64,000 bases of DNA from positions 230,821 to 294,820 of the forward strand of contig FODP01000006.1 in the NCBI GenBank assembly GCA_900110395.1, read 5' to 3'. The position numbers were made by a program, and so were the translations under genes. The stretch is from Rhodospirillales bacterium URHD0017. GTDB lineage: Bacteria; Pseudomonadota; Alphaproteobacteria; Reyranellales; Reyranellaceae. Positions 8,031 to 26,896 of this stretch are shown piece after piece. The notes below the pieces were generated by a model. The model searched no databases. It was not told the DNA's origin and saw only the letters and a program-made list of their open reading frames with translations. Each line of letters starts with the position of its first letter. The first letter of the stretch is position 1.

Positions 8031-8930
8031 ATGGCGCGTTCCTCGTGGAAGGGCTACCTCAAGCTGTCGTTGGTCTCGTGCGCCGTCGCGCTCTACAACG
8101 CCTCGTCGGCGTCGGAGCGCGTGTCGTTCAACACGCTGAACCGCAAGACCGGCAACCGGCTGAAGCAGAACATGGTCGATTCGGTGAGCGGCGAGCCGGT
8201 CGATACGGCTGACCGCGTAAAAGGCTACCAGGTCAGCAAGGGCCAGTACGTCATGGTCGAGGACAGCGAGATCGAGGCGCTCAAGCTCGAAAGCACCCGG
8301 ACGATCGAGATCGAGACCTTCGTGCCGGTGGCCGAGATCGACGACATCTATCTCGACAGCCCCTACTACCTCGCCCCCGACGACAAGGTCGCCGAGGAGG
8401 CGTTCGCCGTCATCCGCGAGGCCATGACGCGCAAGAAGATGGCCGGCATCGGCCGCATCGTGCTCGCCCGCCGCGAGCGCATGCTGATGCTGCAGCCGCG
8501 CGACAAGGGCATGCTGGCGACGACCCTGCGCTATCCCTACGAGGTGCGCCAGGGCAGCGAGATCTTCAACGAGATCAGCGACGTCAAGCTGCCGGGCGAG
8601 ATGCTCGACATCGCCCAGGAGATCATCTCGCGCATGTCCGGCCACTTCGAGCCCGACAGCTTCAGCGACCGCTACGAGGAAGCGGTCGTCTCGATGCTGA
8701 AGGCCAAGCAGGCCGGCCAGACCTTCTCGGTGCCGGAGCCCAGCCAGCCGGCCAACGTCGTCAACATCATGGACGCGCTGAAGAAGAGCCTGCAGGTGGC
8801 AGGCGGCGACAGCGCCCTGCGCCGGCCGCGGGCGCCGTCGAAGAAGGCGGAGGAAGCGCCCGCGGCCAAGGAGTCCGCGCGCAAGCCGGCCGCGAAGAAA
8901 CCCGCCGCGCGCAAGGCGGCGCGCGGGTAG
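8031..8930 (+). CDS. ku: Ku protein, non-homologous end joining
   Basis: 299 residues. Typical bacterial Ku homodimer core: RSSWKGYLKLSLVSCAVALYNA at the N-terminus, FNTLNRKTGNRLKQ, VKGYQVSKGQYVMVEDSEIEAL, YLAPDDKVAEEAFAVIREAM, GIGRIVLARRERMLMLQPRDKGM and LRYPYEVR. The last about 45 residues are a Lys/Ala/Arg-rich tail (EEAPAAKESARKPAAKKPAARKAARG), the kind that bridges DNA and recruits LigD. It threads onto broken DNA ends. LigD is about 10 kb away on the same strand, and a MerR/TPR protein gene follows after 11 bp. Confidence 0.96.
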   Translation: MARSSWKGYLKLSLVSCAVALYNASSASERVSFNTLNRKTGNRLKQNMVDSVSGEPVDTADRVKGYQVSKGQYVMVEDSEIEALKLESTRTIEIETFVPVAEIDDIYLDSPYYLAPDDKVAEEAFAVIREAMTRKKMAGIGRIVLARRERMLMLQPRDKGMLATTLRYPYEVRQGSEIFNEISDVKLPGEMLDIAQEIISRMSGHFEPDSFSDRYEEAVVSMLKAKQAGQTFSVPEPSQPANVVNIMDALKKSLQVAGGDSALRRPRAPSKKAEEAPAAKESARKPAAKKPAARKAARG

Positions 8931-8941
8931 CGGCGGAGACC

Positions 8942-10099
8942 GTGCCCCTCGGCCATCATCAGCTCAGAGGGGAGACAGTCTTTCTCGTCGGCCGCATCCA
9001 GGGACTGACGCGGCGGCGCCTCGACATGCTGGTGAAGCTGCGCGAGGCAAAGCTCGCGACGCGGCCCGGCCGCAGCGTCAGCCTGATCGCCTTCGGCCAT
9101 TCGGCGTCGGCGCGCGCGCTCGACGACGGGCGCGTCGCCCTGCCGCCCGGCCTGCCGGCGACGGCGCCGCTGATCAGCGAGAACGTGCTGCGCCGCGCGC
9201 TCGGCCTGCTGCCGCCGCCGGACGACGTCGACCGCAGCATGGGCCGCGACGAGATCGAGCGGCTGGCCGGGCTGTCGCCCAACCTCCTCTCCTGCCTGGT
9301 GCTGTTCGACGTGCTGGAGCCGGTCGACGATCAATTCGCCTGGCGCGACCTCGTCGCCGCGCGCGAGGCGGCGCGTCTGCTGAAGCGCGGCGTGGCGATC
9401 GGCGACGTGCTGGAAGCGGCGGTGGCGCTGCGCCGGCGCGGCACCAACCTCGCCGAGGCGAGATTGACCGAAGGGCCCACGGGCGAGCTTCTGCGCCAGG
9501 TCGGCGGCCAGCTCGCCGAGTTCTCGGGCCAGCTCACCATGTTCGGCAAGGAGGGCCAGCAGAAGCCGCGCAGCATCGACGATCTTCTCGGCGAGGCCGA
9601 GGACGCCGAGCTCGCGGGCGACCACGCCGCGGCCGAGAGCCTCTACACCACGGCGATGCGCGCCGACACCGCCGATCCCGTGCTGCCCTTCAACCTCGGC
9701 AACGTCTTCCAGGCGCAAGGCCGCGGTCCGGAGGCCAAGGTGGCGTGGCAGATCGCGGTGGCGCGCGATCCCGCCTTCGCCGAGGCCTGGTACAACCTCG
9801 CCCTCGCGGCCGAGGACGAGGAGCAGAGCGACCTCGCCATCGCCGAATACCGCCGCGCCGTGAAGGCGCAGCCCGACTGGGGCGATGCGCACTTCAACCT
9901 GGCGCTGCTGCTCACCAAGGTCGAGCGCTGCGACGAGGCGCTGGCGGCGTGGCAGCGCTTCCTCGAGGTCGAGCCGTCGGGCCAGCACGCCGCCACCGCG
10001 CAGAAGGCGATCGCGCTCTGCCGCATGAAGATCCAGCAGGACAAGGCGGCCTCCTCCGCTCCTGCGGAGCTACGGCGGCCAGGACCTCCGGGAGCGTAG
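8942..10099 (+). CDS. Multi-domain protein: BRCT-like head, MerR-type helix-turn-helix, TPR repeats
   Basis: 385 residues from GTG 8942, with GGCGGAGA just upstream (tight spacing, so the start is uncertain). Residues about 10-60 (ETVFLVGRIQGLTRRRLDML ... GRSVSLIAFGHSA) look like a short BRCT-type fold. Residues about 95-165 (MGRDEIERLAGLSPNLLSCLVLFDVLEPVDDQFAWRDLVAAREAARLL) match the MerR DNA-binding pattern. Residues about 215-365 hold at least three TPR units (DPVLPFNLGNVFQAQGR, FAEAWYNLALAAEDEEQ, GDAHFNLALLLTKVERCDEAL). It follows Ku by 11 bp, so it is probably co-expressed. The last 14 codons lie inside a 27-bp-arm inverted repeat. MerR and TPR parts are fairly sure, the BRCT assignment is tentative. 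Confidence 0.75.
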   Translation: MPLGHHQLRGETVFLVGRIQGLTRRRLDMLVKLREAKLATRPGRSVSLIAFGHSASARALDDGRVALPPGLPATAPLISENVLRRALGLLPPPDDVDRSMGRDEIERLAGLSPNLLSCLVLFDVLEPVDDQFAWRDLVAAREAARLLKRGVAIGDVLEAAVALRRRGTNLAEARLTEGPTGELLRQVGGQLAEFSGQLTMFGKEGQQKPRSIDDLLGEAEDAELAGDHAAAESLYTTAMRADTADPVLPFNLGNVFQAQGRGPEAKVAWQIAVARDPAFAEAWYNLALAAEDEEQSDLAIAEYRRAVKAQPDWGDAHFNLALLLTKVERCDEALAAWQRFLEVEPSGQHAATAQKAIALCRMKIQQDKAASSAPAELRRPGPPGA

Positions 10100-18748: not shown

Positions 18749-21700
18749 GTGGCCAAGTCCCTCGACGCCTACAACGCCAAGCGCGACTTCTCCAAGACGC
18801 CCGAGCCGCCGGGCAAGCCGGCGGCGAAGCCGGGCAACGCCTACGTCATCCAGAAGCATGCTGCGCGGCGCCTGCATTATGACTTCCGGCTCGAACTCGA
18901 CGGCGTGCTGAAGAGCTGGGCGGTGCCGGAAGGGCCGAGCCTGATCGCCGGCAAGAAGCGGCTGGCGGTGCTGACCGAGGACCATCCGCTCGACTATGGC
19001 GGCTTCGAAGGCGTCATCCCCGAAGGCCAGTACGGCAGCGGCACCGTCATGATCTGGGACCAGGGCACCTGGACGCCCGACTTCGATCCCGCGTTCGGCT
19101 ATCGCAAAGGGCATCTGAAGTTCCACCTGGCCGGCAAGAAGCTGAAAGGCCAGTGGCATCTCGTGCGCATGAAGCCCCCCTTGCGCGAAAGAGGGCCGCG
19201 CGAGAAGAGCGAGAACTGGCTGCTATTCAAGTCCGACGACGAGGCGGCGCGGCCGGCCGACGCGCCGGACATCCTGGCCGAGAAGCCGCACTCGGCCGCG
19301 ACCGGCCGCAGCATCGAGGCGATCGGCCGCGAGCAGGATCGCGTGTGGGCGTCGGGGCAAGGTGAAGTCACCGAGGCCAGGAAGAAGCGCCGACGTAAGA
19401 CGCCCGTCGATCCCGCTGCTCTGCCGAAGGCGAAGAAGGCGGCGATGCCGGGCTTCATCGAGCCGACCCTGCCGACGGCGACCGAGACGGCGCCTTCAGG
19501 CGGCGGCTGGCTGCACGAGATCAAGCACGACGGCTATCGCCTGCAGGCTCACCTGGAAAATGGGCGGGTGAAATTGTTCAGCCGGCAGGGCCTCGACTGG
19601 ACCGAGCGCTTTCCCGTCGTCGTGCCGGCGCTCGCCGAGGTGCCGGCCAAGGTCGCCATCATCGACGGCGAGGTGCTGGTGCAGACGGCGGCCGGCGTCG
19701 CGAGCTTCGCCATGCTGGTCGACGCCCTGAAGAGCGGCGGCGGCGACATGCTGTTCTATGCCTTCGACCTGCTCTATCTCGACGGCTTCGATCTCAGCGA
19801 GGCGCCGCTTGGTGCGCGCAAGGCGGCGCTGGCCGAGCTTCTGGCCGACGCGGGCGATGCCGGACGCCTGCGCTACAGCGACCACATCGCGGGCGATGGC
19901 GATGCGGTGTTCAGGCATGCGAGCCGGCTCGGCCTCGAAGGCATCATCTCCAAGCAGGCGGCGTCGCCCTATCGTTCGGGACGGGTGAAGACGTGGCTGA
20001 AAGTGAAGTCGAGCCAGAGCGACAGCTTCGTGATCGCGGGCTTCGTGCCCTCGACGGTGGACCCCAAGTCGGTCGGCGCGCTGGTGCTGGGCGAGTATGC
20101 CGGCAGCCGGCTGGTGCCCGTCGGCCATTGCGGCTCCGGCTTCACCGCGGCGAGCGCACGCGAGGTGTGGCGGCGGCTCGATCCCTTGCGCACCACCACG
20201 CCGCCCTTGAAGGACGAAACCGCGTCGCCCAAGGGCGTACGCTGGGTCGAGCCGGTGCTGTCGGCCGAGATCGAATATCGCGGCCGCACCGGCGGCGGGC
20301 TGATACGCCACGCGGTTTTCCGCGAGCTGGTCGAAGGCAAGGTCGCCAACGACCGGCCACGCGAGGCCGCGCCCAGGCCAAGGAGCAAGGCGAAGGGCGA
20401 TGCCGAGCCGACGGTGCGGCTTACGAATCCCGGCCGCCTGCTGTGGCCCGACCAGGGCATCACCAAGCAGGGCCTGGCCGAGTTCTACGGCGAGATCGCC
20501 GACTGGATCCTGCCGCACCTCGTCGGTCGGCCGCTCAGCCTCCTGCGCCATCCCGAAGGCATCAACGAGAAGGGCTTCTTCCAGAAGCATGCGTGGGCGG
20601 GACTCGGCGGCAGCGTGCGCCAGGTGGCGGTGCCCAACGACGAGCAGCCGATGCTGGTGATCGACGATCTGCCGGGCCTGCTCGAGCTGGTTCAGGCCAG
20701 CGTGATCGAGATCCATCCGTGGGGCGCCAGGGCCGAGCGGCCGGAACTGCCCGATCGCGTCACCATCGATCTCGATCCCGGCGACAAGGTGCCGTGGCAG
20801 CGCGTGATCGACGCCGCGCACGACGTGCGTCGCCGGCTGGCGGCGCTGAAGCTGGAAAGCTTCGTGAAGACCACCGGCGGCAAGGGCCTGCACGTGGTGT
20901 TTCCGCTGACGCCGCAGGCAGCCCCTTCGCCAGCAAACTGGGACACCATAAAGACCTTCGCCCAGTCGATCGCCTCGGCCATGGCCGCCGACCGGCCCGA
21001 TCTCTACACCGACAACATGGCCAAGAGCGGCCGACGCGGCCGCATCTATGTCGATTATCTGCGCAACGGCATGGGCGCCACCGCCATCGGCGCCTATTCC
21101 ACGCGCGCACGCGAGGGCGCGCCGGTGTCGGTGCCGCTCGCCTGGGACGAGCTCGGTGAGAACATTCGGTCGAACCATTTCACGCTGCTCAATCTGCCCA
21201 AGCGACTGGCGTTCCTCGATCACGATCCGTGGGAGGGCATCGCCGCGCTGAAGCAGACGCTGCCGGGCGCCGCGGGCATCGCACCATCGAAGGCCGAGCT
21301 CGCCGCCTACTGGAAGAAGGTCGGCAAGCAGGCGCTGGTCCATCTCGCGCGGCGGCCCCTCAGGCTTTCAGGCAATACGCTTGGCAAGCCACCCAAGGTG
21401 GTGCGCAAGGCGGGCGACGACCGTTTCTGGATCGACAGCGTCGATGGCCTCCTGGGCCTGGTCGAGATGGGCGCCGTCGAGCTTTCAGCCACCAACGCCA
21501 CGATCGACGATCCCGAGCGGCCGGACATGATGGTGTTCAGTGTCGCCAATGCCGACACTGCCCTGCGCCTCAGCACGCTCCTGCGAGCCGAGGGGTTGGA
21601 GAGCTGGCCCAAGCTCACCGGCGGGCGCGACCTGCACGTCATGGTGCCGATCGAGCCCGACCTCGATGCCGAGGAAGCGCTGCGCTACAGCGAGCAGCTG

Positions 21701-21877
21701 GCCGGTCGGCTCGCCAAGGCCAACATCGATTGCCGCTACAATAAGCCAGGAGCGACGGCCATTGCCGCCTTCTCGCCCCGTGCCCTGCCCGGCTTCCCGA
21801 TCGCAGCGCCAGTGGAGTGGGAGCAGGTGCGGCGCGGCATCGCGCCCGACGCCTTCACGATCAAGAAGCGCCCCTGA
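18749..21877 (+). CDS. ligD: ATP-dependent DNA ligase LigD with extra C-terminal polymerase-like module
   Basis: 1042 residues from GTG 18749. Order: 3'-phosphoesterase domain about 25-185 (IQKHAARRLHYDFRLELDG, EDHPLDYGGFEGVIPEGQYG); ATP-dependent ligase domain about 235-530 with nucleotidylated Lys in HEIKHDGYR; polymerase/primase domain about 556-830 with the catalytic pair in TIDLDPGD (about 672) and KTTGGKGLHVVFPL. The last about 195 residues (847-1042) repeat parts of the polymerase domain in degenerate form: FWIDSVDGLLGLVEMGAVEL and WPKLTGGRDLHVMVPIEPD match MLVIDDLPGLLELVQASVIEI and the GGKGLH block, but the metal aspartates are replaced (MMVFSVANAD). Usual LigD proteins are about 800-900 residues. 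With Ku it performs NHEJ end processing and sealing. Confidence 0.95.
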   Translation: MAKSLDAYNAKRDFSKTPEPPGKPAAKPGNAYVIQKHAARRLHYDFRLELDGVLKSWAVPEGPSLIAGKKRLAVLTEDHPLDYGGFEGVIPEGQYGSGTVMIWDQGTWTPDFDPAFGYRKGHLKFHLAGKKLKGQWHLVRMKPPLRERGPREKSENWLLFKSDDEAARPADAPDILAEKPHSAATGRSIEAIGREQDRVWASGQGEVTEARKKRRRKTPVDPAALPKAKKAAMPGFIEPTLPTATETAPSGGGWLHEIKHDGYRLQAHLENGRVKLFSRQGLDWTERFPVVVPALAEVPAKVAIIDGEVLVQTAAGVASFAMLVDALKSGGGDMLFYAFDLLYLDGFDLSEAPLGARKAALAELLADAGDAGRLRYSDHIAGDGDAVFRHASRLGLEGIISKQAASPYRSGRVKTWLKVKSSQSDSFVIAGFVPSTVDPKSVGALVLGEYAGSRLVPVGHCGSGFTAASAREVWRRLDPLRTTTPPLKDETASPKGVRWVEPVLSAEIEYRGRTGGGLIRHAVFRELVEGKVANDRPREAAPRPRSKAKGDAEPTVRLTNPGRLLWPDQGITKQGLAEFYGEIADWILPHLVGRPLSLLRHPEGINEKGFFQKHAWAGLGGSVRQVAVPNDEQPMLVIDDLPGLLELVQASVIEIHPWGARAERPELPDRVTIDLDPGDKVPWQRVIDAAHDVRRRLAALKLESFVKTTGGKGLHVVFPLTPQAAPSPANWDTIKTFAQSIASAMAADRPDLYTDNMAKSGRRGRIYVDYLRNGMGATAIGAYSTRAREGAPVSVPLAWDELGENIRSNHFTLLNLPKRLAFLDHDPWEGIAALKQTLPGAAGIAPSKAELAAYWKKVGKQALVHLARRPLRLSGNTLGKPPKVVRKAGDDRFWIDSVDGLLGLVEMGAVELSATNATIDDPERPDMMVFSVANADTALRLSTLLRAEGLESWPKLTGGRDLHVMVPIEPDLDAEEALRYSEQLAGRLAKANIDCRYNKPGATAIAAFSPRALPGFPIAAPVEWEQVRRGIAPDAFTIKKRP

Positions 21878-21878
21878 C

Positions 21879-24800
21879 TCACAGCGGCGCGTGATGGTGC
21901 TCGAACAGCGAGTGCGCCGCGCGCCAGCCGTCGGCGTAGGCACCGACGATCTGGTCGTTGTCATAAGCCTGGCGCAGCCAGGTGCCGTCGGGCAGGCGCA
22001 GGTGCGACCACGGCGCGCTGCTGGGACCGAGCAGGCCCTGCACCGACGCCGCATCGTGGGCCGAGACCTGCCAGTCGAGTGAGATGCCACGCTCGCTGAC
22101 GGTGATGACCTCGCCGGAATTCCAGGTCACCCGCCAGGTGTCGGGCGACACCGCCGTCAGCGTGCCGCCCGAGAAGGCGTGGTTGGCGTCGGGCGTCAGC
22201 ACGGTGTCGGCCTTGCCGTCGACATGCAGCGTGATCGGCTTGCCGACTTCGAAGATCACCGCGGTGTCGCCGAACTGGGCGGCGAGCCCGGTCGTCCAGC
22301 TCGCGGTGCCGTGCTGGCCATCGGTCTGGATTTGGACCTGCCAGGCGTTGCCGCCGGCATTGCCACGCGCGGCGACGAACTCGCCAACCGCCTGGAACTC
22401 GTAGGCGAAGCCGTCGAGGCTGACGATATGGACGTCGCCGAAGCCGCCCGACACGAAGGTCCCGCCAAGACCGTCCGAGTGCGCCGAGAAGCTGGTCCGG
22501 CTGTAGGGACCGCCGATGTTGAGGAAGATCTGGCCGAACGGCGTGTCGAGCGTCAGCACGCCGCCGCCCCAACTCGGGTTGGTCGCCTGGACGCCGGCGA
22601 GATCGAGCACGTCGTCCGAGCCGAAACCGGTGATGGTGCCGTGGAAGGCACGCGCATCGTTCAGCACCGCCGTCGAGTGGTTGCCGAAGCTGAGGGTCTG
22701 GCCCGACTCGACGGCGGCCTGCAAGGTCAGGGTCGCGTTGGTGCCGATGCCGAGCGTGCCGGTGCCCTCGACCGAGCCGTAGAGCAGGAGATTGCCGCCC
22801 ACGGCGGTGATCGAGCCGTCGTTGTCGATATCGGTCAGGGCCACCGTCTTGTTGCCGCCGCCCATGCCCGACACCGTGCCGGTGCCCGAGATCGAGCCGC
22901 CGGCCGCGACGTCGATGTTGGCGGCGCGCAGGGTGGCGTGGGTGCCGCCCAGCGTGACCTGGCCGTGGCCGCCGACATCGAGCGTGCCGTTGGTCGCGAA
23001 CAGCGCGCCCTCGTCGGTGCCCTGGCCCACGATCATCTGGCCGGTCCCTGAGCCGCCGCTGACCACGGCATCGCCGTAGACCAGCAGCGAGCTGTAGGCG
23101 CCGACGCGGACGAGTCCCGCGCCGGCGGCGCCGACGATCAGGTTCCCGGTGTTGTTGGCGAGCTGGCCTTGCGCGGCGCCGACGGCGACCTCGCTGCCGT
23201 TCAGCAGCACCAGGCTGCCGGTGCCGCCATTGCCCACGACCAGCGTGCTGGAGGCCGAGAAGACGTTGGCGACCAGCAGCTCGCCGCCGTCGAGCGTGAG
23301 CGTGCCCTGGCCGCCCGCCTGGTTGCCGATCGTGGCATCGTAAGCCGTCACCTGCCCGGTGATGCCGCGGTTCATGCCGTTGATCAGCAGCGTGCCCGTG
23401 CCGACGTCGCCGACCGTGAGCAGGCCGTTGTTGGTCCATTCGCCGCCGTTGACGATGACGCTGCCGCGCGAGCCGGCCGACTGGCCGATGTCGGCGCCGG
23501 TGTCGAACATGCTCGAGGCGACGCCGATCAGCTCGAGCGTGCCGGTGCCGGCGCCGCCCACCACCACCGTGCCGTTGGCCGAGATCTGCTCGAGGTTGAT
23601 GACCGTGCCGGTGCTGCCGCTCTGCTGTCCGATGACGAGGTTGGCGGCGCTCGACGCGGTGCCGACGGCAAGCATGCCGCCGGCCAGCATCATCAGGCCG
23701 CTGCCCGTGCCGCCGACGATCACCTGCTGCTGGGCGTTCAGCACCGCGCCGCCGGTGAGCGTCATCGCGCCGCCACCGTCGACGGAGACGGCAAGCCCGC
23801 CAATGCCCTGGGCCGTGACATGGCCGGTAAGCAGGGTCGTTCCGGTGTCGAAGATCTGGCCGACCGCGCCGTTGCCCGTCGCCGTATGATTGCCGGCGCC
23901 GAACAGGGCGACGTTGCCGCCGCCCGGCGGCGTGCCGCCGACGTTCCAGTTGGTGGCAGACGCGAAGTCGGTGCTGCCGGGCGCGGGACTCCACAGGAAG
24001 GCGCCCGAGACGTTGGTGTTGGTGACGTCGATGGTGGCCGCGCCGGAGCGCGCCGAGGTGTCGGTGACGGTGATGGCGATGTGGTCGGCCGCCGTGCTGC
24101 GCGCCTCGTCGGTCAGCGTCTGCAGGTACTGCTCGACCTGCGCCAAGGTCGTACCGAATGTCAGGGCCGACGTGGTTGCGACATTGGCAATGGTGACCTT
24201 GGTGCCGCCGCCGGCACTGACGGTGTCGAAGCCCGAGACCCGGACGATGCCGCTGGTGCTCTCGACGACGACCGAGTAGGTCGTCGTGGCGGCACTGGCG
24301 CCGGCCGCGAGCGGCGCCTGCAGGACGACATCGGGCACCACTGCGCGGACGCCGACGGTGCCGTGCAGCGCCCCCGTCGCCGCCGCCGAGGCGCCGCCGG
24401 GCACGAAAACGCCCGGCTGAATGCCGCCGAGCGGCGCCACGAAGCTGATGGTGACCGATGACCCGGACGTGACGGCCTGGACGTTGAGCCCGTTCAGGTG
24501 GCCATCCGGGTCCGGCATCTGGAACTTGAGCGGCAGCAGGCCGCCGGGCCGGTTCACGGTCAGCTCGCCGGCGGTATAGGTCGGCGTGCCGGAGATCGCG
24601 ATGTTCTCCAGCACCAGCCGGTCGGCGAAGGTGAAGTTGTTGATGCTGCTCGAGGTGGTGAAGTTGGCCGGATCCTTCAGCACCAGCATGCTGGGCGAGT
24701 AGGGATACTGCGCGAGCTGGGTGGCGCTGTTGGCGACGAAGTTGACGGCCTGTGTGGTGACCGTGCCGTTCAGGACCAGCGTGGCGCCGGCGTCGACGAT

Positions 24801-26768
24801 GAGGGTGCCGGCGCCAATGAGGTTGTCGGAGACGACCAGCCGCTGCGCCCCCAGCGTGTAGTCTGCCACTGCCTCGATCGTGCCGGTGTTGGTGATGGTG
24901 TTGCTGGCGGTGGCGTTGAGCGTGCCGTTGGCCCTGATCGTGCCGCCGGCGTTGTTGATCGCGGCGGCGGCGAGCGTGCCGGAGAAGAAGGCATCGGCCC
25001 CGCTCTGTACCGAGAATGTGCCGCCGATCGTGAGGCTCGCGGTGCTGTAGGCGCTGGGCGACAGCGCCGCCAGCAACGAGCTGTTGCCGCTGACATCGAG
25101 GTTGCCGCTGAGCGAGTACTGGCTCTGCACGCCGCCCACGACCAGCACGCCGCCGCTGCCGAGCTGGCCCGCGACATCGAGGTTGCCCCCTTGCCCCTGG
25201 CCGACCACGCGGGCGGTTCCGTCGCTGAAGCTGAAGAGCTGGTTGGCCGGCAGCAGGCCGGGCGTGACGCTGGGCGGCGCGATCGGGGGTGACGTCTGCA
25301 CGCCGACGTCGCGCACGACGGTGTTGCCGTTGCTGTCGGTCGCGACGATATGCACCACGTCGGTGCCCGAGCGCACCGTGTCGGTGAGATGCGCCAGGAC
25401 CGTGTTCACCGTCGACAGCGAGCCGTTGAAGTTGAGCGTCGTGCCGCTGGTCGCGCCGAAGAAGGCGCCGAGACCGTCGATGCCCAGCGTGCCGCCGCCG
25501 AGCGACGTGAGCGTGACGCTGTAGGACGTGGCCGACGAGTTGCTGGCGACCAGCACGGCATCGGTGCCGGTGAAAGCGACCCGGCCGGGCGCGCCGCTGA
25601 CGGCGCCGGGCGCGATGAAGGCCAGCGCCCCTCCGTCGTCCGGCGCGCCGGTGGTCGGCGGCGGGCTGCCGGCGGCGAGGGTCGAGGCCAGGCCCTGGAG
25701 CTGGGCCGGCGTGAAGCTCAGGAAGCCGTTGGGCGTGTTGGCCGTGGTCGGGAAGTCCCACAGCTCGATGTTGCCGGCGTTCAGCTGGACGCCCTGGGCG
25801 ACGGTGCTCTGCCAGCCCGGGTAGCCCGCGAGGATGATCGGCGCCGCCGTCTGGAAGCTGTTGCTGACCGAACCCGGCTTGACCATGGCGTCGTTGGCGA
25901 GTTGGCCATAGACGACGTCGTCGGGCGAATAGAGCGGGTCGCGCAACGCGTGATTGCCGGCCTGGACGATGCGGCCCGAGTTACGCGCCTGCTGCAGGAC
26001 GGCCAGCGTGAAGTTGCCGCCGTTCAGCTCATTGCCGCTGTCGAACAGGTGGAAGCTGTTCATCGTGTAGTCGAGCGGCGTCGTCGACCATTGGTAATAG
26101 TCGGCGATCGCCGCGCGCAGGGTCAGCATCTCGGCGGCGTCGTGGTAGCCGCCCATTTGCAGCTGGGCGATCTGGTTCACCGTGCCGTCGGCGGGATTGG
26201 TCGACACGGCCGCGCCCGTCTTCAACGGCACGAAAGGTTCGTCGGTGGCGTAGGCGCCGGCCGTCTGCGACATGCCACGGATAATCGACAGGCCGTCGTA
26301 CTTGGTGGCGAGCGCGCTCTGCAGGTTCTGCCAGGCGTTGATGTAGTCGGCGCTCCAGAAGCGGCCGATCGTCTGGGTGGCATAGGAGCCGGGATCGACC
26401 GCGTTCTGGCCGGTCACCGTGATCGCCGCGCCGTTGATCTCCTTGACCCAATCGGGCGCGGTGAAGCCACCCCATACCCGGAGCTTGATGCCGAGGTCGG
26501 TGTGGTAAATGCTGTTGAACTGGTTGACCTGCTGGATCGCGCTGTCGATGAACGAGGTGTCGACCGTGCCTTCGTTCGTCTCCAGCTGCGCCCAGGTGAC
26601 GTTCAGCACGATCTCGCTGAAGCTGGTGGCGTACTGCGCCAGCTCGAAAGGATTGAAGACCGGCAGCGTGGGCGGCGTGGTGGTATAATAGGTATCGTAA
26701 AAGCTGATATTGCCCATATCCACGAGGCCGGTCTGGGCGGCCTTGAAGCCGTCGAACGGCAGGCTCAT
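21879..26768 (-). CDS. Large beta-repeat protein with TIM-barrel-like head and VWD tail
   Basis: 1629 residues from ATG 26768 (CGGAGAAC upstream). Residues 1 to about 385 resemble a glycosidase-type TIM barrel (SEIVLNVTWAQLETNEGTVD, IKLRVWGGFTAPDWVKEING, DSGNELNGGNFTLAV, NIELWDF). Residues about 400-1000 carry Ig/cadherin-like and beta-helical stretches. About 1000-1440 are autotransporter-type strand repeats (for example VVGGAGTGTLELIG, LTVGDVGTGTLLINGM, VVGNGGTGSLVLLNGSEV). Residues about 1446-1600 are a von Willebrand type D domain (VHIVSLDGFAYEFQAVGEF), followed by YADGWRAAHSLFEHHHAPL. No signal peptide and no RTX nonapeptides are seen, so the export path is unclear. Probably a cell-surface or secreted adhesin/carbohydrate-active protein; enzymatic activity is unproven. 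Confidence 0.85.
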   Translation of the reverse strand: MSLPFDGFKAAQTGLVDMGNISFYDTYYTTTPPTLPVFNPFELAQYATSFSEIVLNVTWAQLETNEGTVDTSFIDSAIQQVNQFNSIYHTDLGIKLRVWGGFTAPDWVKEINGAAITVTGQNAVDPGSYATQTIGRFWSADYINAWQNLQSALATKYDGLSIIRGMSQTAGAYATDEPFVPLKTGAAVSTNPADGTVNQIAQLQMGGYHDAAEMLTLRAAIADYYQWSTTPLDYTMNSFHLFDSGNELNGGNFTLAVLQQARNSGRIVQAGNHALRDPLYSPDDVVYGQLANDAMVKPGSVSNSFQTAAPIILAGYPGWQSTVAQGVQLNAGNIELWDFPTTANTPNGFLSFTPAQLQGLASTLAAGSPPPTTGAPDDGGALAFIAPGAVSGAPGRVAFTGTDAVLVASNSSATSYSVTLTSLGGGTLGIDGLGAFFGATSGTTLNFNGSLSTVNTVLAHLTDTVRSGTDVVHIVATDSNGNTVVRDVGVQTSPPIAPPSVTPGLLPANQLFSFSDGTARVVGQGQGGNLDVAGQLGSGGVLVVGGVQSQYSLSGNLDVSGNSSLLAALSPSAYSTASLTIGGTFSVQSGADAFFSGTLAAAAINNAGGTIRANGTLNATASNTITNTGTIEAVADYTLGAQRLVVSDNLIGAGTLIVDAGATLVLNGTVTTQAVNFVANSATQLAQYPYSPSMLVLKDPANFTTSSSINNFTFADRLVLENIAISGTPTYTAGELTVNRPGGLLPLKFQMPDPDGHLNGLNVQAVTSGSSVTISFVAPLGGIQPGVFVPGGASAAATGALHGTVGVRAVVPDVVLQAPLAAGASAATTTYSVVVESTSGIVRVSGFDTVSAGGGTKVTIANVATTSALTFGTTLAQVEQYLQTLTDEARSTAADHIAITVTDTSARSGAATIDVTNTNVSGAFLWSPAPGSTDFASATNWNVGGTPPGGGNVALFGAGNHTATGNGAVGQIFDTGTTLLTGHVTAQGIGGLAVSVDGGGAMTLTGGAVLNAQQQVIVGGTGSGLMMLAGGMLAVGTASSAANLVIGQQSGSTGTVINLEQISANGTVVVGGAGTGTLELIGVASSMFDTGADIGQSAGSRGSVIVNGGEWTNNGLLTVGDVGTGTLLINGMNRGITGQVTAYDATIGNQAGGQGTLTLDGGELLVANVFSASSTLVVGNGGTGSLVLLNGSEVAVGAAQGQLANNTGNLIVGAAGAGLVRVGAYSSLLVYGDAVVSGGSGTGQMIVGQGTDEGALFATNGTLDVGGHGQVTLGGTHATLRAANIDVAAGGSISGTGTVSGMGGGNKTVALTDIDNDGSITAVGGNLLLYGSVEGTGTLGIGTNATLTLQAAVESGQTLSFGNHSTAVLNDARAFHGTITGFGSDDVLDLAGVQATNPSWGGGVLTLDTPFGQIFLNIGGPYSRTSFSAHSDGLGGTFVSGGFGDVHIVSLDGFAYEFQAVGEFVAARGNAGGNAWQVQIQTDGQHGTASWTTGLAAQFGDTAVIFEVGKPITLHVDGKADTVLTPDANHAFSGGTLTAVSPDTWRVTWNSGEVITVSERGISLDWQVSAHDAASVQGLLGPSSAPWSHLRLPDGTWLRQAYDNDQIVGAYADGWRAAHSLFEHHHAPL

Positions 26769-26896
26769 GGACAGTTCTCCGCTGAGGACGTCCAAAAACT
26801 AGCAGGTGGGCGGGCTGGTGTAATCGTCGGTCTCAATGAAAACGCCCTGGCAACGGCGCGCGCCTGCGGACGTTTATCCGACAAGAGGATCTGAGC

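Follow-up and report, generated by a model that had tools for sequence, protein, structure and literature searches.

The tailed LigD gene and its domains

The window analysed here, a 64,000-nucleotide stretch from Rhodospirillales bacterium URHD0017 (Reyranellaceae), encodes a DNA ligase D (LigD) in which a complete set of phosphoesterase (PE), ligase (Lig) and polymerase (Pol1) domains is followed by a second, altered polymerase module, referred to below as the tail (Table 1). The position of the reading frame, its length of 1042 residues and the motifs quoted in a preliminary description of this DNA are as stated there, and the length is unusual, as was noted there. The start region of the protein (VAKSLDAY) is common to its orthologues. 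Pfam places the PE domain at residues 35-140, the ligase at 251-420 and 440-527, and the best LigD_Prim-Pol stretch at 572-828, with a second stretch matching the same family. Pfam and NCBIfam thus both give the three domains of a Pseudomonas-type LigD in one chain and in the usual order, and a partner Ku is encoded in the genome. On the opposite strand, a 1638-residue reading frame (21879-26795, -) ends one base past the LigD stop; it probably encodes a repetitive surface protein, and among close relatives it is present, shortened or not found.

Table 1. Features of the tailed LigD gene and of the accompanying genes in the window
Feature	Position	Strand	Evidence
LigD, PE-Lig-Pol plus pseudo-Pol tail, 1042 aa, GTG start	18749..21877	+	ORF, Pfam, NCBIfam
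PE (3'-phosphoesterase) domain, residues 1-170	18749..19258	+	PF13298 E=4.2e-42; TIGR02777
ATP-dependent ligase domain, residues 236-535	19454..20353	+	PF01068, PF04679; TIGR02779
Pol1, intact primase-polymerase domain, residues 546-830	20384..21238	+	PF21686 best stretch; catalytic residues present
Pol1 motif I, TIDLDPGD	20762-20785	+	
Pol1 motif II, KTTGGKGLHV	20867-20896	+	
Pol1 motif III, IYVDYLRN	21044-21067	+	
Tail, predicted pseudo-polymerase module, residues 831-1042 (212 residues)	21239..21874	+	domain matches, tree, residue table
Tail motif I, lost: MMVFSVANAD	21527-21556	+	
Tail motif II, kept: KLTGGRDLHV	21611-21640	+	
Tail motif III, altered: NIDCRYN	21722-21742	+	
Ku of the clade accompanying the tailed LigD	8031..8930	+	PF02735 E=2.5e-47; synteny, tree, census
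TPR protein, 385 aa, directly behind Ku; membership in the system uncertain	8942..10099	+	kept with Ku in relatives

Four ligases with a Pol domain and four Ku genes are encoded in the genome, which comprises 8.18 Mb in 62 contigs. Besides the tailed LigD, the ligases comprise a classic PE-Lig-Pol LigD (contig C28, beside a Ku gene) and two ligases of the Lig-Pol type, which lack the PE domain (contigs C14 and C59), the former with a Ku gene nearby. With two ligases of each class (Lig-Pol and PE-Lig-Pol) plus four Ku genes, the NHEJ set is large for a single genome.

Homology and origin of the tail

The tail is homologous to the LigD polymerase domain far beyond chance. Searched alone, residues 831-1042 match LigD_Prim-Pol (Pfam, E=1.7e-29), which bears out the initial report of a second polymerase-like module, and TIGR02778 (NCBIfam ligD_pol, 1.1e-25). 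The P. aeruginosa LigD polymerase (2fao) matches the tail at 1.6e-12 by sequence and at 2.3e-21 as a profile, and the solved polymerase domains of an archaeal NHEJ polymerase (5dmu) and of mycobacteria are matched as well. A Foldseek search with a structure model of the tail (pLDDT 56) returned only LigD/PrimPol polymerases among the top 15 hits (best E 1.7e-6, TM-scores ≤0.43). Apart from the Foldseek ranking, no conclusion is drawn from this model or from that of Pol1 plus tail (pLDDT 49), because the known fold of Pol1 was also poorly modelled from the shallow alignment of nine sequences. With 29 K+R and 26 D+E, the tail has no marked basic character.

The preliminary description took the tail for a repeat of the protein's own polymerase (residues 556-830), and both are indeed LigD_Prim-Pol domains arranged in tandem. 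However, the tail shares 48-49% identity with the Pol domains of the C14 and C59 Lig-Pols, against 31-32% with Pol1. When 72 Pol domains were placed in a tree, the five Lig-Pol domains came out together with the 12 tails in one clade (support 100/100, branch 0.87), in which the tails make up one group (98/89) and the Lig-Pols another (97/93). This clade stands apart from every PE-Lig-Pol domain sampled, and the Pol1 domains of the tailed LigDs group together (100/97) amid the other PE-Lig-Pol domains. Internal tandem duplication would need strong convergence to account for such a tree; identity and tree together rule it out for practical purposes, leaving it only the slightest probability. The closer identity to the Lig-Pol domains and their grouping with the tails instead indicate acquisition by fusion from the Lig-Pol lineage, which happened once as far as the sampled genomes show. 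The nearest PE-Lig-Pol relative from outside the family in the tree sample (L085, genome G350) ends 15 residues past its Pol domain.

The tail sequence matches 574 plasmid records, many of them in rhizobia and all at less than 60% identity. Both rhizobial plasmid matches that were inspected (S. meliloti pSymB and Mesorhizobium pB1-1-8) are Lig-Pol genes, and it may be conjectured that plasmids spread the Lig-Pol donor. The S. meliloti record carries no annotation at the Lig-Pol locus.

Distribution in the Reyranellaceae

Genome sets sampled at one genome per species, rather than a full census, were surveyed for the tail, a check already proposed in the preliminary description. A Pol domain was found in 50 of the 75 Reyranellaceae genomes and a LigD with two Pol domains in 12 (nine Reyranella and three members of a sister genus). 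No other reading frame with two Pol domains was found in 385 alphaproteobacterial genomes (59 with a Pol domain) or in 398 Pseudomonadota genomes (97 with a Pol domain). An artefact of assembly or gene calling is ruled out by the single uninterrupted frame in 12 genomes. The single-Pol LigDs of the family that were examined are all orthologues of the classic enzyme, with 63-91% identity to the C28 protein and 37-45% to the tailed LigD, so no copy of the tailed LigD lineage (n=12) lacks the tail. The tailed LigD is a lineage-restricted variant, whose retained pseudo-polymerase came from a foreign source, the Lig-Pols. In the open-access literature, with subscription journals mostly outside the scope of the search, no earlier description of a LigD with two or with inactive polymerase domains was found.

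Loss of the catalytic site

Residues are numbered as in P. aeruginosa LigD through alignment to 2fao (chain index + 531), an offset that gives what we take to be the P. aeruginosa positions of the residues checked. For K606, the P. aeruginosa position is confirmed by a review of the field (PMC8656161). In the tail encoded in the window, D669 is replaced by Ser, D671 by Ala and R762 by Tyr, and F603, F604 and K606 are deleted; T704, H710 and R776 are retained, and position 759 aligns with an Asp. The module was first described as dead through loss of its metal aspartates; D669 and D671 are indeed gone, but the Asp at 759 remains, so that two of the three are lost.

Among all 12 tails, equivalents of D669 and R762 are absent throughout and D671 is lost in most, while S/T704, H710 and R776 are kept in every tail and K566 of the 5'-phosphate pocket in 11. 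With respect to the motifs of the AEP domain, the window tail has FSVAN in place of motif I (hhhDhD), whose aspartates bind the catalytic metals (PMC8656161). Motif II (sxH, with S/T704 and H710) is found in 12 of 12 tails. For motif III (hD), an Asp aligns at 759 in 11, but the preceding stretch is deleted in ten and R762 is lost in all. Altogether, the tails conserve 53 invariant residues (n=12). The catalytic residues D669, D671, D759 and R762 are kept by all 12 Pol1 domains, which also retain S/T704 and H710, and by all five Lig-Pol domains. These residue losses predict a catalytically dead tail.

Erosion and selection

The tails differ in how much of the fold they retain. In two genomes of the sister genus (G456 and G458), the second Pol is full-length (E 9.4e-70 and 1.0e-64), with GLDP at motif I and DWLCN or DWQPN at motif III, and has neither the Asp669 nor the Arg762 equivalent. 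In G222, motif I and a stretch before motif III are gone and FFHKG is kept. Reyranella tails are without FF.K and the following loop, and the stretch after motif I is missing from them except in G006 and partly in G436; the G006 tail has kept its length but not the aspartates. In the GKG loop, residues are changed in Reyranella tails to R/Q/S and then E/D. Because the G456 and G458 domains already lack both of these residues at full length, the loss of catalysis probably preceded the shortening. The present-day sequences would be most simply explained by fusion first, loss of the catalytic residues next and deletions last.

Purifying selection acts on the tail, though less strictly than on the active domains. 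Pairwise dN/dS (Nei-Gojobori) is 0.17-0.28 for the tail in close pairs, compared with 0.08-0.15 for Pol1, and 0.41-0.48 compared with 0.23-0.27 in two more distant Reyranella pairs, the tail value being roughly 1.2-3 times that of Pol1. No stop or frameshift was found in the tail in 12 genomes of two genera. In a further genome (G002), the tailed LigD is gone save for a 63-residue PE remnant (L146, contig G002:C32, 11654-11842) beside the Ku and TPR genes; this genome has lost the whole LigD, not the tail alone, and the Ku has stayed.

The accompanying Ku and TPR genes

That the tail might go together with a particular Ku had been raised at the outset, and a dedicated Ku clade accompanies the tailed LigD without exception (12 of 12 genomes); among the 63 remaining genomes of the family, it occurs in only four. 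A branch of 2.4 (100/100) splits this clade from the Ku encoded next to classic LigD; one row of the tree, G447, is a wrongly cut fragment with a very long branch and was disregarded. Where they are linked to the tailed LigD, the Ku and TPR genes share its strand at a distance of roughly 3-25 kb; the exceptions are G436, with Ku and TPR on another contig, and G222, with Ku on another contig. Four genomes keep this Ku in the absence of the tailed LigD, so the Ku does not depend on it. Because the genomes share descent, the co-occurrence of Ku and LigD represents co-inheritance and is not independent evidence of binding. Ku and TPR form a conserved pair in 11 of the 12 tailed genomes and in four genomes without a tailed LigD; we know of no TPR partner of bacterial Ku.

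Possible function of the tail

In M. tuberculosis, the LigD Pol works in pairs across the break and binds Ku (PMC8656161). The tail has lost its catalytic site yet has been kept in every known member, so that it probably serves a purpose other than catalysis, for instance docking or the holding of DNA ends, most likely together with Pol1 and the dedicated Ku. Tree and distribution show, within the sampled genomes, that a single fusion joined a Lig-Pol-type Pol to the C-terminal end of a PE-Lig-Pol LigD in a Reyranellaceae ancestor. The added domain then lost its catalytic residues, probably first, and later part of its fold; it is retained under purifying selection, in what we consider the probable account as a docking or end-holding module. 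Pol1 would carry out synthesis, and the pseudo-Pol would act as a built-in second Pol partner that holds phosphate or DNA and/or docks the dedicated Ku. One LigD would thus have both halves that an ordinary LigD is thought to obtain from two Pols across the break. Retention of the phosphate-contacting residues favours binding, while the loss of the template-stacking FF.K motif and of surface loops in Reyranella argues against ordinary synapsis, making a docking or scaffold role preferable in that genus. A bolder version, to which we give little credence, is that the Pol/pseudo-Pol pair replaces the second LigD at the break and docks Ku, forming a single-molecule machine for synapsis and fill-in; if true, the pair would resemble in its logic polymerases in which one subunit is catalytic and the other a scaffold.

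Against a docking or end-holding module stand the lack of marked basic character in the tail, the four genomes that keep the Ku without this LigD, the faster evolution of the tail relative to Pol1 and its continued shrinking in Reyranella; the last two would also be seen if the extra Pol were a neutral, functionless remnant decaying in place and tolerated at the C-terminus. The stepwise loss, from full length in G456 and G458 through G222 to the further deletions in Reyranella, is in keeping with such decay. It is nonetheless unlikely, considering the intact frame in two genera, the dN/dS well below 1 even in the most divergent Reyranella pairs, the 53 invariant residues and the presence of the tail in all 12 copies, the one genome that dropped nearly the whole LigD having not dropped the tail by itself. 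Quite unlikely, too, is that the pseudo-Pol binds nucleotide or 5'-phosphate and thereby regulates Pol1 or the ligase by sensing, instead of serving as a dock for Ku or DNA ends: the residues kept are the phosphate-contacting ones, but the GKG-loop changes in Reyranella alter the pocket. The retention of motif II, of the nucleotide-phosphate residues S/T704, H710 and R776, and of the Asp at 759 in nearly all tails might also suggest that the tail is active after all, using altered metal ligands as a second polymerase or a terminal transferase. This is very improbable given the universal absence of D669 and R762, the loss of D671 from most tails and the deletion of FF.K from all Reyranella tails, the missing motif I aspartates being those that bind the catalytic metals.

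Relation to known systems

The tailed LigD shares the three domains and their order with the Pseudomonas-type LigD (P. aeruginosa; 2fao for Pol), and all the catalytic residues checked are present in Pol1; ordinary members end after Pol, whereas the LigD of the window has a second, predicted dead Pol behind it. The Ku-binding synaptic homodimer of the M. tuberculosis LigD Pol (PMC8656161) suggests, as a model, how a second Pol partner might act. There the partners are identical and active, whereas here one would be dead, covalently linked and shortened in its surface loops. Prokaryotic PolX proteins without polymerase activity (PMC9226535) likewise represent a repair polymerase family with inactive members, although the family is a different one and, as far as described in the part of that source consulted, the inactive members are not arranged in tandem with an active one.

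The coordination of two DNA ends by LigD with Ku is still unsolved, and at the time of review there was no experimental structure of wild-type LigD (PMC8656161). A LigD with one live and one predicted dead Pol, the latter graded from full-length to shortened, separates Pol catalysis from possible holding or docking.

The closest relatives of the tail are the Pol domains of the Lig-Pol NHEJ ligases (S. meliloti pSymB, Mesorhizobium pB1-1-8, C14 and C59). These are intact and lie behind a ligase domain only, whereas the tail has been shortened, apparently inactivated and fused to a complete LigD, an instance of domain reuse between two NHEJ ligase classes. In both Lig-Pols of the window genome (L047 on C14 and L048 on C59), the position of K566 is occupied by E or D. 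The genome that lost the tailed LigD, G002, also contains a broken Lig-Pol-like Pol gene with an internal stop (L125, contig G002:C42, 4373-5023), 41% identical to the C14 Pol, which is probably a Lig-Pol pseudogene.
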